Virus record (IMG/VR): IMGVR_UViG_3300042321_001681
Span: 1-20,566 of that record
Reading direction: 5' to 3' (one strand)
Length of the DNA stretch: 20,566 nt
Source of the DNA: a virus
Positions 3,898 through 13,166 of the stretch are shown piece by piece. Each line of letters begins with the position of its first letter. The stretch's first letter is position 1. The notes beneath the pieces were generated by a model. That model was not told the origin of the DNA, did no database searches, and was given only the letters and a program-made list of their open reading frames with translations. The position numbers and the translations under genes are program-made.

Positions 3898-4131
3898 TCA
3901 CCGAAACGCATACAGATGTGCGGATCTGTAGCACTTCCGCTCCGGCGACCGAGGTTTCGTCACATGAGACAGCACCCGGACTTCGCCTGGTCTGTCCCTC
4001 GGCGGCAGGTTGTCATTACCCCAAAGGTTGCGCTGGATCGCGTCGTACCTCGCGGCCTTCTGGCGATCCCCTTGCGGGTCATAGGGCTCCGACTCCCGCA
4101 CTCCCGCATCTCCGCACTTGCAGTATACCAT
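3898..4131 (-). CDS. Possible small hypothetical protein
   Basis: A 77-codon reading starting MVYCKCGDAGVRESEPYDPQ and continuing GDRQKAARYDAIQRNLWGND. Codon third positions are GC-rich like real neighbours and the middle looks protein-like, but there is no recognisable domain and no Shine-Dalgarno. Its ATG lies inside the repeated 12-mer that I read as a promoter element, so promoter and start would collide. If it is not a gene, 3625-4138 (514 bp) is a non-coding stretch holding only the leader hairpin and the two -10-like 12-mers. Confidence 0.35.
   Translation of the reverse strand: MVYCKCGDAGVRESEPYDPQGDRQKAARYDAIQRNLWGNDNLPPRDRPGEVRVLSHVTKPRSPERKCYRSAHLYAFR
4122..4130 (-). promoter_or_regulatory. 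Second TGGTATACT element between divergent genes
   Basis: An exact copy of the 12-mer found at 3724-3735 (ATGGTATACTGC on the minus strand). It lies 8 bp upstream of the plus-strand gene start at 4139. The core GTATAC is palindromic, so it could serve as a -10 on the minus strand or as an operator acting on both directions. Confidence 0.4.
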
Positions 4132-4138
4132 CGTGAAT

Positions 4139-4933
4139 ATGAATTCCTTCCGTATTCAGCCACCCTTCTTGCTGTCCTTCAGCGGCGGGCGCACAAGCGG
4201 GATGATGCTTCAGCGCGTGCTTGACTCCTGGGGCGGAACGATGCCTGCCGATGGCCACGTGGTGTTCGCCAACACGGGCCGGGAACATGCCGCCACATAT
4301 GAATTCTTGGAAGACGTCGAGCGGCATTGGTGCCACGTCACGTGGTTGGAGTATCGACCGGGTGGGTTTGCCGTCGTGACGGCCGACACGGCCAGTCGAG
4401 ATGGGAAGCCGTTTGCGGAACTGATTGCCAAGCGCAAGTACCTACCTAATCCCATTACGCGGTTCTGTACATCCGATCTAAAGGTGATCCCTATGCGGAA
4501 GTACATGGCCTCGCTGGGGAAGGAAGACTTTACCTCCATCATCGGGCTTCGCGCCGACGAGCCGCGCCGCGTTGCCCGCCTCCGGTCGGACCCAACCCGC
4601 GACATCGCCATGCCATTAGCCGACGCTGGAGTCACGGCCGACGATGTTCGCGCATTCTGGCGCGAGCAGCCATTCGACCTACGTCTGCCTAACGATGACC
4701 CTGCGTTCGGAAACTGCGACTTGTGTTTCCTCAAGGGCGCAGCTCGAGTTGAGCGCGTCATCCGCGCCGAGCCAGAACGCGCTGCATGGTGGGTGGAGCA
4801 GGAACGCCTACGCGACGCGAGGTTCCGAAAGGACCGCCCAACCTACGCGCAGTTGCTCACACAGATTACTGTGCAAGGCGAGCTCTTCGGCGACAAAGAC
4901 GATACAACCATTCCATGTGATTGCACGGAGTAA
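4139..4933 (+). CDS. PAPS-reductase-like PP-loop protein
   Basis: A 264-residue protein of the phosphoadenosine-phosphosulfate reductase / adenine-nucleotide alpha-hydrolase superfamily. The PP-loop SGGRTS is at 15-20, FANTGRE at 43-49, RFCTSDLK at 108-115 (the family R-x-C-T-x-x-LK motif) and GLRADEPRR at 137-144. Cysteines in CDLC (193, 196) and CDC (260, 262) could bind metal or an Fe-S cluster. The family activates or transfers sulfur via ATP or PAPS and includes DndC-type DNA-sulfur proteins; true sulfate assimilation is less likely in a phage. The in-frame TTG 4118 and GTG 4133 are alternative starts; ATG 4139 lacks a clear Shine-Dalgarno. With the next gene it forms a plus-strand pair within an otherwise minus-strand block. 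Confidence 0.8.
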   Translation: MNSFRIQPPFLLSFSGGRTSGMMLQRVLDSWGGTMPADGHVVFANTGREHAATYEFLEDVERHWCHVTWLEYRPGGFAVVTADTASRDGKPFAELIAKRKYLPNPITRFCTSDLKVIPMRKYMASLGKEDFTSIIGLRADEPRRVARLRSDPTRDIAMPLADAGVTADDVRAFWREQPFDLRLPNDDPAFGNCDLCFLKGAARVERVIRAEPERAAWWVEQERLRDARFRKDRPTYAQLLTQITVQGELFGDKDDTTIPCDCTE

Positions 4934-4937
4934 CCAT

Positions 4938-5507
4938 ATGCCTCGCCACGCGAATCTCCCGTTTCACCTGTATGTGCATGTGTGCAACACCGCGCTCGGG
5001 CCGACGATGCCCGCCGGCACAACACGCGGCATTTGGCACGCCGTCTACGCCCGCCCCGGCCAGATCGTGATGGCGCACGTCCTGCTCGAGACGGGCGCAG
5101 AATGGTGCGGCGTCCCGTTGCACAAGCTCGCGCACGACCCCAAGGCGTTTGAGCGCAGCCCGCTGCCGGGGTTCTGCGAGCCGTCACACCTCCAGCCATG
5201 GGGCGCAATGGGCGACCATGTTGAGGCGATTCACCTTGAGTACCTCGAGGGAATCAATGTGATGGGCACGAGCGCCGAGCGCGGGTTCTGCGGCCGGCAT
5301 ACCGGGATCGTCATCGACTGGAGTGACGGGTTTAGTCGTTACCCGCAGGAACACAAGCCGCTCAACCTCATTGAGCGCGTGGACGGCAGGTTCATCCTGT
5401 TCCCCAACAACTACTGCCGATTCCTCGACAAGCACTTCACGTCGCACAAGCGCGACGCAGACCTCGCCAAGTACCGCCGTGGCGAGGATGTGTACTGGGA
5501 GGAATAG
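4938..5507 (+). CDS. Hypothetical protein paired with the PAPS-reductase-like gene
   Basis: A 189-residue soluble protein, not recognised. ATG 4938 is 4 bp after the previous stop, with GGAG overlapping that stop region, so the two genes are cotranscribed and probably coupled. The sequence is rich in His, Trp and aromatic residues (IWHAVYARPGQIVMAHVLLE, then HVEAIHLEYLEG and FILFPNNYCRFLDKHF) and has no signal peptide or membrane segment. Several His/Cys could bind metal, but no known motif is clear. A function linked to its neighbour (substrate preparation or DNA/RNA modification) is only an inference from pairing. Confidence 0.75.
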   Translation: MPRHANLPFHLYVHVCNTALGPTMPAGTTRGIWHAVYARPGQIVMAHVLLETGAEWCGVPLHKLAHDPKAFERSPLPGFCEPSHLQPWGAMGDHVEAIHLEYLEGINVMGTSAERGFCGRHTGIVIDWSDGFSRYPQEHKPLNLIERVDGRFILFPNNYCRFLDKHFTSHKRDADLAKYRRGEDVYWEE

Positions 5508-5515
5508 TGATCGAA

Positions 5516-5540
5516 CGTACACGTCGCAATAACGTGTACG
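5516..5540. repeat. Perfect 9-bp inverted repeat between convergent genes
   Basis: CGTACACGT, a 7-nt spacer CGCAATA, then ACGTGTACG. It lies between the stop of the plus-strand gene (5507) and the stop of the minus-strand gene (5562). It could end transcription in both directions or bind a dimeric protein. No U-tract follows on either strand. Confidence 0.6.
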
Positions 5541-5561
5541 CAACTTCCACTTTCTTGAACA

Positions 5562-5825
5562 TCACTGCTCGCGCCTGTACCCGAGCTTCCACAGCAAGCG
5601 CGACAGATCGTTGGCGAGGTCGGTCACGGCCTGCTCGTCAAGCTCTGGCCGGCAGCAGTGAATCGCCTCGTGGAGCGTGGTATCTAAACGCTCCTCTTCG
5701 CTCTGCCATGTGGCAACGCGCAGCATGCGCCCAGCGGCCTTGCCGGGATCGACCATGTTCCCGTAGTCGTGCAGGTTCGGGCTAAACCGCAGCGTCCAGT
5801 ACTTGCCGCCGAGTCGGACGCGCAT
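5562..5825 (-). CDS. Small protein with HExxH zinc-protease motif
   Basis: An 87-residue protein. LHEAIHCC in the second half is an HExxH zincin motif preceded by a hydrophobic helix (LDTTLHEAIH). It is followed 8-9 residues later by DEQAVTDLANDLSRLLWKLGYR, whose acidic residues could give the third zinc ligand. The N-terminus MRVRLGGKYWTLRFSPNL is a beta-hairpin-like segment, giving a minimal metallopeptidase layout. Similar short proteins occur in other phages without assigned function. Catalytic activity, target and zinc binding are inferred from the motif. ATG 5825 is 7 bp from the preceding gene on the same strand. Confidence 0.65.
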   Translation of the reverse strand: MRVRLGGKYWTLRFSPNLHDYGNMVDPGKAAGRMLRVATWQSEEERLDTTLHEAIHCCRPELDEQAVTDLANDLSRLLWKLGYRREQ

Positions 5826-7832: not shown

Positions 7833-8134
7833 CGCTCTTCGACCCCATCGAGGCCGACCGCCGCAAGGTGATCGGCAAGGCGCTCGCGGCCGACCGCCGC
7901 AGCGAACTGCTCGCCGCCGCCCGCGGGTTCGCTGCATTCATCGCACGCGACGGCGATACCGTGACGAGCGACGAGGTCGCAAACCTCATGGCCCACAATG
8001 GCCTTGACTACAACGACCTCGGAAACGCTCGTGGCAGCATCTTCGACGAGAAGTTCGTGTGGACCGGGCAGGTCGTGCCGTCGCGCCGGCCATCGTCGCA
8101 CGGTCGCCTCATTCGCGTGTGGAGGCTCCGATGA
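7829..8134 (+). CDS. Hypothetical phage protein
   Basis: A 101-residue protein starting MTLFDPIEADRRKVIGKALA. The middle (AARGFAAFIARDGDTVTSDE, then VANLMAHNGLDYNDLGNARG) and the closing SSHGRLIRVWRLR match the layout of a common class of small phage proteins that begin with FDP and end with a VWR/VWY strand, probably a winged-helix-like fold. No function is known. It is coupled at both ends by ATGA overlaps. Confidence 0.7.
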   Translation: MTLFDPIEADRRKVIGKALAADRRSELLAAARGFAAFIARDGDTVTSDEVANLMAHNGLDYNDLGNARGSIFDEKFVWTGQVVPSRRPSSHGRLIRVWRLR

Positions 8135-8463
8135 GAACCGTCGAAATCAAGATGACCCTGCACGCAGGGCTGTTTCCGCACGCGCCCGAGGTCGCCGACT
8201 ACTGCGACCGCCACGAGGTCGAGGCGTCCATCGACGCACGCTGGATGGCCGAGCAGCGCGAGGACTTCCACTACCACGGCAGCCGCGTGCGGACGATCTG
8301 GACGCTGCTTTCCTGGAACGTGGTCGCGCTGCACGTGGATGGGAAGCAGCTCCTAACCGCCGACTCGGTGCCGGAAGGATTCCCGATGCTCGAGGTGATG
8401 CGCGTACTTCAGACCGAGATCGGCGAGGACATCCGCGCCATCGGGCCGGGGGCGACGCCATGA
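8131..8463 (+). CDS. Hypothetical phage protein
   Basis: A 110-residue protein with no recognised domain. The N-terminus MRTVEIKMTLHAGLFP and the RVRTIWTLLSWNVVALHVDGKQLL segment predict beta strands; HAPEVADYCDRHEVEASIDARWMAEQREDF is helical. ATGA overlaps at both ends. It is typical high-GC sequence for this operon, in contrast to the following gene. Confidence 0.68.
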   Translation: MRTVEIKMTLHAGLFPHAPEVADYCDRHEVEASIDARWMAEQREDFHYHGSRVRTIWTLLSWNVVALHVDGKQLLTADSVPEGFPMLEVMRVLQTEIGEDIRAIGPGATP

Positions 8464-9572
8464 GATACCTGTCAGTATGCAGCGGCATTGAAGCGGCCAC
8501 CGTATGCGTGCAGGTAGATCAAACGGTCCGGGAGCTATCTTCCATGTTTGACTACGCATTCGATGGAACAAGTATTTTCACTCCACCTCAACTTCCATCT
8601 TTGCCAGCGGACTACGGAATTGGCTTGATTGTTGGTCCATCGGGAACAGGAAAGTCAACCATTCTCCGTAAATTTGGTGAAGAGCAGAAGATTGAGTGGA
8701 ATCCAGCGCTTGCAGTCTGTTCTCATTTCAAAGATGCGGTGGATGCTCGTGAGCGTTTGTCTGCAGTTGGCTTTAACTCCATTCCCGCATGGATGCGTCC
8801 ATATCACGTCCTCTCCACTGGAGAGAAGTTTCGTGCTGATTTGGCTCGACAACTACATGGCGGTGCTGTAATTGATGAGTTCACGTCCGTAGTAGACAGA
8901 ACCGTTGCCAAGTCGTGTGCTCATTCCACTCGCCGTTATGTTGATCAGAACAACATTAAGGGTTTGGTATTTGCTTCATGTCATTACGACATCATTGAAT
9001 GGCTGCGTCCAGATTGGGTGTTCGACACTAGCAGCGGTAGTTTGACCGCAAGGGGGTTTGAAAGGCGACCCGAGATTGTCTTGGAAATGCTTCCTTGCTC
9101 GACCGAAGCGTGGGCAATGTTCCGCAACCATCACTATCTCGACGGAAACATCAATAAAAGCGCACGATGCTGGATTGTTTCTTGGGACGGAACCCCAGTT
9201 GGATTCTCTTCTGCCCTTTCGTTTCCTAACGGGAATTTGAAAAACGCTTGGCGTGAACATAGGACGGTGGTGCTTCCCGACTACCAAGGTTTGGGTTTAG
9301 GAGTGCGAATCTCTGATGCCACGGCTGAATTGTTTGTGCGTCAGAGCTGTCGATACTTCTCAAAAACCGCACATCCGCGCATGGGCGAATACAGAAATCG
9401 TTCGCCGCTGTGGAAACCAACAAGCAAAAACAATCGCGCTCGGACTGATTACAACATCAGCAGATGCACCAAAGAAGATGGACATAAAATGAAACACGCA
9501 AATCGGTTGTGTTATTCGCATGAATACATCGGACGAGAAATTCCCGCTGTAGAGGAACACCATGAACGCTGA
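8460..9572 (+). CDS. ABC-type ATPase fused to GNAT acetyltransferase, with a Dcm-like N-terminal tag
   Basis: A 370-residue protein with two domains. The ABC-type ATPase has Walker A GPSGTGKS (59-66), signature LSTGEKFR (118-125), Walker B AVIDE (136-140), D-loop SVVDR (143-147) and H-loop His175. The GNAT domain runs from about 205 to 320, with acetyl-CoA motif VVLPDYQGLGLG (270-281) and family-like HHYLDGNIN, KNAWREHR and HPRM segments. This ATPase-GNAT fusion occurs in phages; a nucleic-acid-modifying role by analogy with the GNAT-fold Mom protein is inference. The first 15 residues, MRYLSVCSGIEAATV, match the start of phage cytosine-C5 methyltransferases and do not belong to this fold. 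Composition shifts sharply just after them: 20 of 60 bases are G/C at 8941-9000, against 41 of 60 at 8221-8280. ATG 8460 is coupled to the previous stop (ATGA); ATG 8544 is an alternative. Confidence 0.82.
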   Translation: MRYLSVCSGIEAATVCVQVDQTVRELSSMFDYAFDGTSIFTPPQLPSLPADYGIGLIVGPSGTGKSTILRKFGEEQKIEWNPALAVCSHFKDAVDARERLSAVGFNSIPAWMRPYHVLSTGEKFRADLARQLHGGAVIDEFTSVVDRTVAKSCAHSTRRYVDQNNIKGLVFASCHYDIIEWLRPDWVFDTSSGSLTARGFERRPEIVLEMLPCSTEAWAMFRNHHYLDGNINKSARCWIVSWDGTPVGFSSALSFPNGNLKNAWREHRTVVLPDYQGLGLGVRISDATAELFVRQSCRYFSKTAHPRMGEYRNRSPLWKPTSKNNRARTDYNISRCTKEDGHKMKHANRLCYSHEYIGREIPAVEEHHER

Positions 9573-9819
9573 CTACGCCACCTACCTCCTCCGCCGGCGT
9601 GCCGACGAGCGTGCCGCTGCTGCCGAGCGCACGCCCACGAGGCACCACGAGTTTGCCGAACACTGTCGCGCCGAGGCGCGGTTCTTTGACGGCGTCGCTG
9701 ACTGCATCGAGCAGCTCCAGCGCGAGGCCGCCGAGGAACGAACGAGCCGTGTATTGGAGAAGGCGGGGGCCGGGGGCGTTCCTCGGCCCCTGCCCGCCAT
9801 CTTGAAGGAGCTGCTATGA
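9562..9819 (+). CDS. Hypothetical helical protein
   Basis: An 85-residue, Ala/Arg/Glu-rich helical protein (MNADYATYLLRRRADERAAA, then HCRAEARFFDGVADCIEQLQ), with a likely coiled coil over most of its length. AGAGGA precedes ATG 9562, which overlaps the end of the ATPase-GNAT gene by 11 bp. Composition returns to the high-GC style of the operon here. Function unknown. Confidence 0.68.
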   Translation: MNADYATYLLRRRADERAAAAERTPTRHHEFAEHCRAEARFFDGVADCIEQLQREAAEERTSRVLEKAGAGGVPRPLPAILKELL

Positions 9820-11208: not shown

Positions 11209-12117
11209 ATGGCGCGGGTCGAAATAGAGCAGATCGTCCAGGCGTATCGGCAGCTCGGGTCGGTATGGAAGGTCGGCAAGATGCTCGGCATTCCCGGCCA
11301 AGCGGTCCACGAACGCCTGCGAAAGCACGGCGTGCCGATGACGGGCATCACCCAGTGGACCGATGAGGAGATCGATGAACTGCGCCGGATGGTGGATTCC
11401 AGCGTTGCCATCAACGAGATGGCCGCGAGACTCAATCGGACGTATGCGGCCGTGGCCTGCAAGCTGAACGAGATCGGACTGAAGAACTACCGGCGCGCAC
11501 GCATCAAGAACGTGAAGAAGGGAACCGGGTACGACAAGGCCAGCATGAAGAAGCACCTAGCGTTCCTCGTCGCCAACCCCGCAACCAAGATCACGCCGTA
11601 TTCGCGCAAGCATGGGCTGCGTGTCGATTCGCTAGTAACCGCCATGCAGAATTATTTCCCGGAGAGGTTTGCCGCGTACCTGGCGGATCATCACGGTGAT
11701 ATTGAGCGCAGGGAATGTCCTGGCTGCGGCGCGAAGTTCATTCCGGCCAATGGCAAGCAGACGTACTGCACGCGGAAGTGCAATGCCAACCATTTGAAGG
11801 ATCTGCAGTATTTCGGAGGCCGTCGCCTCGAGGCTGCTGGCGCTCGGGAGCGGATATGCCAGGTGTGTTCCCGAAACGATCCGCCGATTTTGCACGTGCA
11901 TCACGTGATCGGCAAGGTGAACGATCCCGATAACAAGCACATGGTGGCACTGTGCGCTGGTTGCCATCGGGTCATCGGGGCCGTGGCACGGATCAAGGGT
12001 CTGGTCGATTCCTCGGCTGCGTGGAAGCGATTCATCAGGCTGGCGTGGTTCGAGGCGCACGGCGCAGAGTTTGCCGGCGCGGAGACGCTGCCGGATCTTG
12101 ACGATTTGGCATCTTGA
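11209..12117 (+). CDS. HTH / zinc-ribbon / HNH nuclease-like protein
   Basis: A 302-residue modular protein. Residues 1-45 hold a helix-turn-helix (SVWKVGKMLGIPGQAVHERL). Residues 48-92 hold a Myb/GcrA-like helical DNA-binding unit (WTDEEIDELRRMV, then INEMAARLNRTYAAVACKL). A zinc ribbon is formed by C170, C173, C187 and C191. The C-terminal HNH core has CQVC (217-220), HVHH (229-232), N242, HMVALCAGCH (244-253). This could be a free-standing homing endonuclease or a nuclease/regulator used by the phage. AGGAGG lies 10 nt before ATG 11209. Its end overlaps the -35 of the promoter for the recombination genes. Confidence 0.78.
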   Translation: MARVEIEQIVQAYRQLGSVWKVGKMLGIPGQAVHERLRKHGVPMTGITQWTDEEIDELRRMVDSSVAINEMAARLNRTYAAVACKLNEIGLKNYRRARIKNVKKGTGYDKASMKKHLAFLVANPATKITPYSRKHGLRVDSLVTAMQNYFPERFAAYLADHHGDIERRECPGCGAKFIPANGKQTYCTRKCNANHLKDLQYFGGRRLEAAGARERICQVCSRNDPPILHVHHVIGKVNDPDNKHMVALCAGCHRVIGAVARIKGLVDSSAAWKRFIRLAWFEAHGAEFAGAETLPDLDDLAS

Positions 12118-12197: not shown

Positions 12198-13166
12198 ATG
12201 GAACTTGCACGAATTGGTCAGGCGCAGCTTGACCCCATGACGGTGGCACAGGTGTTCAAGGCATCGGGAATGTTTCCCGATATCCAGTCCGAGGCGGCGG
12301 CGTGCGCCAAGATCATCATCGGTCGCGGGCTTGGTCTGTCCGACTACGACGCCATGACTGGGCTGCACATCATCAAGGGCAAGGCGGTCCTGGCCGCCAA
12401 CCTGATGGCAGCGTCGATCAAGCGGGCCGGGAAGTACGACTACCGCGCCACGTGCTCCGACACCGAGTGCAGCATCGTGTTCTTCGGGCGCACGATGGAG
12501 GGCAAGTGGGAGGAGATCGGCACCACCGAGTTCACGCTCGAGGACGCACGGCGGGCGCAGCTCGGCGGCGACAACTGGCGCAAGTGGCCGAAGGCGATGC
12601 TGTTCGCCCGCTGCATCTCGAGCGGCTATAAGCAGCACTGCCCCGACGCCCTCGGCGCAGCCCCGGTATATGTCGAGGCACACGGCGAGACGGAGATCAT
12701 GGAGGACGCTCCGCGCAGCCGCGCCGCCCTGCCCGCCCCGGAGGTCGTGGAAGCCACCACGATGCCCCAGGACGCGCCCATCGCCGAGGACGCCCCGAAG
12801 CCCGTCCGCAAGCGCACGACGCGGCAGGCGCTCGCTGCGCCCGCCCCCGAGGCCGCGGCCGCTCCCGTGGCTCCCGCGCCCGCTGACTCCTACCCCGAGG
12901 AGTACGAGGGGCTGTTCCTGATCCAGCGCGTGGTCCGCCGCCCCGGCAAGCCCATCGCCGTGCAGGCCGCCGGCGAGCACGGCACCGCCTGGATCGCCAC
13001 TACCGTCGCCGAGTACGCCGACCTGTGCGAGCAGGCCATCGACAGCGAGCTGCGGCTTGATATCGCCCGCGTCGGGGGTGCGCTCACCATCATGCGCGTG
13101 ATCCGCACCGCTCCCGCACCGGCACCCGTCCCAGCCACCGTGCCGGCCGACGATCTGCCCTTCTGA
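12198..13166 (+). CDS. RecT-like single-strand annealing protein with SSB-like tail
   Basis: A 322-residue protein. Residues 1-165 match the RecT-like phage family: IIIGRGLGLSDYDAMTGLHI followed by IKGKAVLAANLMAASIKRAG, TEFTLEDARRAQL, NWRKWPKAMLFARCISSG and CPDALGAAPVY. It anneals single strands in phage recombination and replication. A Pro/Ala-rich linker (about 166-232) leads to a second small domain (about 235-310, beta-rich: GLFLIQRVVRRPGKPIAVQA), then another Pro/Ala linker and the terminal tip PADDLPF. That tip resembles the bacterial SSB C-terminus that recruits host repair and replication proteins. GAGGAG lies before ATG 12198, and the gene is driven by the promoter at 12114-12142. 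No exonuclease partner is visible here. Confidence 0.82.
   Translation: MELARIGQAQLDPMTVAQVFKASGMFPDIQSEAAACAKIIIGRGLGLSDYDAMTGLHIIKGKAVLAANLMAASIKRAGKYDYRATCSDTECSIVFFGRTMEGKWEEIGTTEFTLEDARRAQLGGDNWRKWPKAMLFARCISSGYKQHCPDALGAAPVYVEAHGETEIMEDAPRSRAALPAPEVVEATTMPQDAPIAEDAPKPVRKRTTRQALAAPAPEAAAAPVAPAPADSYPEEYEGLFLIQRVVRRPGKPIAVQAAGEHGTAWIATTVAEYADLCEQAIDSELRLDIARVGGALTIMRVIRTAPAPAPVPATVPADDLPF

Follow-up and report, generated by a model that had tools for sequence, protein, structure and literature searches.

We analyzed a 20,566-nt stretch of viral DNA (IMG/VR record IMGVR_UViG_3300042321_001681, positions 1 to 20,566; the whole stretch is hereafter called the window), and found that its gene at 8460–9572 is very probably a chimera generated by an in-place exchange of gene bodies, in which the body of a C5-cytosine methyltransferase gene (dcm) gave way to that of an ABC-ATPase-GNAT gene while the ends of dcm were retained. 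In the translation, residues 1–15 of the product, P0001, are those of a phage dcm leader, and an ABC-ATPase-GNAT protein follows thereafter. The features of the gene are listed below.

8460..9572, + strand: open reading frame (ORF) of 370 aa, one open frame, encoding P0001; the translation starts MRYLSVCSGIEAATVCVQVDQTVREL
8460..8503, + strand: 5′ scar, the first dcm codons (MRYLSVCSGIEAATV), identical to the dcm of the relative L098, with identity reaching upstream to 8419
8486..8503, + strand: exchange interval, the 18-bp word CATTGAAGCGGCCACCGT, common to local dcm genes and sister-lineage ATPase-GNAT genes
8505..9533, + strand: body of the ABC-ATPase-GNAT protein, residues 16–358, G+C-poor and under purifying selection
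8634..8660, + strand: Walker A motif GPSGTGKST of the ABC-ATPase part
9090..9362, + strand: GNAT domain PF00583, residues 211–301, E 1.4e-7, above the curated cut-off
9534..9572, + strand: 3′ scar, tail REIPAVEEHHER and stop codon, with an I-AV part like the sister-lineage dcm tail and an HER-stop part that is the local slot end

The gene changes parents within an 18-bp word

At the 5′ end, the window agrees base for base with the dcm start and preceding DNA of L098 over 8419–8503 and diverges after 8503, the matches along the junction being 26/26, 18/18 and then 11/36. The other parental type is represented by L003–L005, which hold ATPase-GNAT genes in the same slot of a diverged sister lineage and are homologous to the window gene over its body (77% at the DNA level). 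Compared with L003, the window matches at 26/110 upstream and 12/26 in the leader start, then at 18/18, 22/36, 40/60 and 77/120, while L005 matches at 22/110 upstream and at 13/26 in the leader start, the upstream values of both being at background level; exact identity of both L003 and L005 with the window begins at 8486. Since identity with L098 runs to 8503 and identity with L003–L005 starts from 8486, the exchange point lies within CATTGAAGCGGCCACCGT, slightly upstream of base 8505, near which an earlier sequence-only reading of the window had placed the recombination. The gene therefore has one parent on its left and the other on its right, overlapping in a short shared word, the pattern of an exchange at short identity. 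Among all viral contigs, this word was found in 17 stretches: 11 dcm genes, four ATPase-GNAT chimeras, and two elsewhere. That reading's claim of a phage dcm-type start of 15 codons followed by an unrelated ATPase-GNAT protein was confirmed by the 8419–8503 identity, which also rules out a chance likeness of the leader. The same chimera is present in another record (G001, 41 kb), with five mismatches to the window over 13,153 bp, which makes an assembly artefact unlikely.

At the 3′ end, the tail REIPAVEEHHER is of the sister type at first and then passes into the local end, where the slot gene and the start of the downstream gene overlap. ATPase-GNAT proteins lacking the dcm leader mostly end shortly after YSHEYIG, whereas those of L003–L005 add NHIAAVKAKEIA, similar to the end ERIAAVDAKEDA of dcm. 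In Mom genes found in the slot the last residues are KPIAAIKAVEDK or KPIAAIEAREDA; a dcm-like tail is thus missing from other ATPase-GNAT proteins and present on Mom-family slot genes. Over the 32 nt that precede the stop overlap, the ATPase-GNAT tail (L115) and the Mom tails match dcm tails at mostly 19–26 positions, compared with 6–10 for native ATPase-GNAT controls (the binomial values of these matches are nominal and assume 25% chance identity); the dcm of L137, with a shifted end, has a lower tail match. The sequence-only reading had pictured a single scar, at the 5′ end; that scar is real, but a second one lies at the 3′ end.

Base composition also changes along the gene. The sharp fall in G+C noticed earlier was reproduced, from 41/60 at 8221–8280 to 20/60 at 8941–9000, and at third codon positions the gene has a G+C of 0.46, its two neighbours having 0.88 and 0.80 and the L003 gene 0.34, in agreement with a source of lower G+C.

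The encoded protein is a conserved ABC-ATPase-GNAT protein

P0001 matches phrog_11143 over residues 17–361 (E 2.6e-110), so that the family match begins only after the dcm-type leader. It has the Walker A, signature and Walker B motifs of an ABC ATPase, with G59, S61, G62, G64, K65, L118, S119, G121, E122, D139 and E140 invariant across 39 proteins, and the catalytic motifs of both domains are conserved. A fold search with the predicted structure (mean pLDDT score 83) returned ABC ATPases, while sequence searches of solved structures gave weak ABC P-loop matches only and a PADLOC search weak P-loop matches only. The methyltransferase domain PF00145 was found neither in P0001 nor elsewhere in the window record, and P0001 accordingly lacks the domain of a C5-methyltransferase. 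In the model both ends appear disordered, with a mean pLDDT of 49 for residues 1–10 and 39 for residues 361–370, which places the leader and tail scars outside the predicted fold. Compared with L002 and L005, the body shows a nonsynonymous divergence (dN) of 0.08–0.13 and a synonymous divergence (dS) of about 1.1 (NG86), and is under purifying selection.

Relatives of the protein occur in 55 phage records, every one below 60% identity, and in at least 253 viral-contig stretches, and at least six distant relatives were among the matches listed in a bacterial genome scan. Only four stretches in 2.9 million viral contigs had a leader of the form M..L..C..IEAA.V with a next codon that does not start with G, namely one contig with the window's gene and the contigs of L003–L005. 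A dcm-like leader native to the ATPase-GNAT family was rejected, as the other relatives whose starts were read begin unrelatedly; L003–L005 are the sister lineage, in the same slot.

Modification genes differ between individuals at one genome position

The gene occupies a slot between two small genes.

8131..8463, + strand: gene upstream of the slot; its product P0002 has 110 aa and belongs to no known family; slot marker in the two lineages
9562..9819, + strand: gene downstream of the slot, encoding P0003, 85 aa; its start overlaps the end of the slot gene

A search with P0002 found 12 near relatives, whose slots hold a full dcm in seven (L092, L093, L094, L096, L097, L098 and L101), an in-frame dcm stub in one, nothing in three (L090, L099 and L100), and an ATPase-GNAT gene in one (L091, the same contig as L015). 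Genomes carrying dcm after a homologue of the 8131–8463 gene, the arrangement that a swap of methyltransferase for ATPase-GNAT calls for, were thus found, and together with the switch of identity from L098 to L003–L005 they bear out the swap; the homologue is 88–100% identical in them and their dcm starts as the window leader does. The upstream gene ends at 8463, its stop overlapping the start of the slot gene (ATGA), so the coupling that had been described as kept is intact. DNA around the slot is mostly 88–98% identical among the near relatives, and P0002 is 100% identical in L090 (empty), L092 (dcm) and L091 (ATPase-GNAT), which indicates that the slot contents changed recently. In 15 records dcm and ATPase-GNAT never co-occur.

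Two further alleles were observed. The stub (L095:5330–5464) encodes 44 aa in frame, retaining the first 27 and last 17 residues of dcm, and may represent an intermediate between a filled and an empty slot. In L101, dcm is preceded by a further ORF (5336–5734), of 132 aa and no known family, which ends with a copy of the last residues of the upstream gene (TEIGEDIRAIGPGATP), another chimera with a retained end.

In the sister lineage, the gene upstream of L003–L005 is a distant P0002 homologue at the same position (32% identical, E 6e-11). A search with it gave 33 loci, some near duplicates, of which 31 had a readable slot: dcm in 13, empty in seven, a phrog_757 DNA methyltransferase in four, ATPase-GNAT in three, Mom family (PF25680, E 4.8e-17) in two, and HNH in two, one of the latter having HNH and then dcm. 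Known or predicted DNA-modification genes thereby account for 22 of the 24 filled slots, and the DNA-modifying genes carried at one genome spot differ between individuals in both of these related lineages, whose phages are uncultured. No third lineage with the slot was found using the upstream-gene profile.

The leaders of L003–L005 read M[NK]YLFECSNIEAATV, a decayed dcm leader whose motif I residues are lost (SVCSG to FECSN); over its first 26 bases, that of L005 matches sister dcm leaders at 18 and L098 at 13. The ATPase-GNAT cassette is 81% identical across the lineages compared with 32% for the neighbouring protein, which indicates that the cassette moved between them, and since L003–L005 already have a dcm-type leader in the sister slot, the chimera probably predates this genome. 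Many inserts of the sister lineage are flanked on both sides by GGAGGACGCATGA, repeats that could allow clean loss of inserts. HNH-type ORFs at L118:5315–5863 and L125:3555–4151 carry the C-terminal tail (LPIPTTLFGRTA / LPIPTTLFERTA) of the usual downstream gene, so replacement of bodies with kept ends extends beyond dcm.

A model for the exchange and its alternatives

In the favoured scenario, the slot would normally hold dcm in this phage lineage, and the dcm body would have been replaced by the ABC-ATPase-GNAT gene of a lower-G+C relative. This donor would already have had dcm-derived ends, like L003–L005 in the sister slot, which would make homologous exchange possible inside the 18-bp leader word and near the shared 3′ end. 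Local dcm start codons, local start/stop overlaps and an intact frame would all be retained in the outcome. A candidate recombinase is encoded downstream of the slot.

12198..13166, + strand: RecT-like single-strand annealing protein, phrog_561, E 6.5e-9

Proteins of the Red type recombine diverged DNA efficiently (PMC2327257), and at 44 bp the leader offers enough length for cassettes with dcm ends to be exchanged.

Several points weigh against this scenario. The exact shared word, 18 bp, is below the minimum of roughly 30 bp quoted for Red-beta (PMC3945230), although partial identity on the flanks may help. In the body tree, the window and L003–L005 are not joined first, the window being nearest L002 by identity, so two separate acquisitions of the leader are possible; nevertheless, a grouping of the window with L003–L005 was not rejected by the approximately unbiased test (p-AU 0.18 for DNA and 0.30 for protein). 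Slots with an HNH gene or without any gene show that the slot is not solely for DNA modification, and the enzyme activity of the ATPase-GNAT protein is a published prediction.

The HNH and empty slots would also fit a general accessory-gene site in which the ATPase-GNAT protein has another role, such as modification of host proteins, and acetylation of host RNA polymerase is known for phage GNATs (PMC7824862). We consider this a somewhat unlikely account, given the DNA-modification genes in 22 of 24 filled sister slots.

Slightly less probable, and in our view doubtful, are two independent replacements, in which an ATPase-GNAT body entered dcm separately in the window and sister lineages and left leader and tail each time. 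The body tree speaks for them, as the window and L003–L005 are not nearest and L002 and L006–L009, which lack the dcm leader, fall within the same group. However, in both the window and L003–L005 the junction follows codon 15, the same residues come next (C/S-V-Q) and the tail starts at the same place, a double coincidence that is unlikely unless guided by microhomology, and a single origin of the chimera is compatible with the p-AU values above.

The leader could instead have been kept as useful, for example for translation start or coupling to the upstream gene, rather than as a passive scar: every slot gene keeps the ATGA overlap and ends with a ribosome-site-like GGAGG or similar ahead of the next start. 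This is rather improbable, because the L003–L005 leader has lost its motif I residues and, compared with the closest dcm leaders, differs at 8/26 bases, the leaders of ATPase-GNAT relatives from other phages are unrelated, and residues 1–10 are disordered in the model. An untranslated leader, with translation beginning at an internal codon (GTG 8508, for example), can be largely set aside: the conserved family region does start at residue 17, a GTG codon in the window and L003, but by eye no ribosome site precedes 8508, GGAGGACGC precedes the leader ATG in L003–L005, and the slot gene shares with dcm alleles the same overlap of its start with the upstream stop.

Function of the ATPase-GNAT protein

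Acyl modification of DNA bases was predicted by Aravind and colleagues for GNATs that are coupled to an ABC ATPase, phage pT24 being an example (PMC7824862). The presence of dcm, Mom and another methyltransferase family (phrog_757) in one slot lends independent contextual support to this published prediction. The protein of the window would most likely modify phage DNA bases by acyl transfer with its ATPase partner domain, replacing methylation as a protection against host restriction, and the absence of co-occurrence with dcm in the 15 records fits such a role. Among 80 ATPase-GNAT loci of other phages, dcm lies within about 4 kb in one, Mom in five and HNH in two; with so few dcm neighbours, it is this slot that speaks for an equivalence of dcm and ATPase-GNAT. 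The Mom-like neighbours are those of L053–L055, L057 and L058. The anti-restriction purpose proposed earlier for both proteins is in keeping with the slot contents. Profile comparison detected no relation of the GNAT part to Mom: P0001 has no Pfam match to Mom (PF25680), and hhalign against the slot Mom proteins gave a probability of 0.2. As to the swap and its likely meaning, the sequence-only reading is supported.

Relation to known systems

The fused architecture is the same as in predicted phage ABC-ATPase-GNAT DNA-modification proteins, for example that of Tenacibaculum phage pT24 (PMC7824862), whose gene product is 39% identical to P0001 over 84% of the protein; the window member differs from the other ATPase-GNAT proteins read in its dcm-derived leader and tail. 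With phage C5-cytosine methyltransferases (PF00145, phrog_116), the window gene shares the first 15 residues (44 bp) but nothing of their catalytic domain. Mom genes have the slot in common, those of L132 and L143 also with the dcm-like tail, and both they and the ATPase-GNAT protein are GNAT-fold in the literature, yet no sequence relation is detectable. As in phage mosaicism by relaxed homologous recombination of the Red/RecT type (PMC2327257, PMC3945230), identity switches sharply where a short sequence is shared, and the genome encodes a RecT-like protein. Unlike in such mosaicism, both ends of the exchange fall within the coding frame, and it is bodies of unrelated enzymes that are swapped between the kept ends of one gene.

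The window thus catches the in-place replacement of a phage DNA-modification gene at base resolution, with operon coupling unbroken, and shows how phages may exchange protection genes; both parental types are available, as are several alternative alleles. The replacement is one of several events in this slot, whose modification genes take each other's place. Tentatively, we suggest that the dcm ends might act as a socket, between which modification enzymes of unrelated chemistry (C5 methylation, momylation and ATPase-GNAT acylation) are traded as bodies, so that cassettes with dcm ends would be exchangeable with any dcm-bearing relative. Bodies between retained dcm ends are a suggested search route to unknown modification or anti-restriction genes.

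Other variable regions of the window

The upstream region had no match in named phages; the closest terminases among these are those of two podoviruses whose genomes come from a Florida spring and carry exonuclease and RecT genes. A PAPS-reductase-like gene (4118–4933, phrog_424) lies inside a variable stretch of roughly 790 bp that is present in the window and L097 and missing from the other relatives compared across that point. At 11209–12117 there is an HNH endonuclease-like gene; the relatives have a shorter or different stretch at this place.
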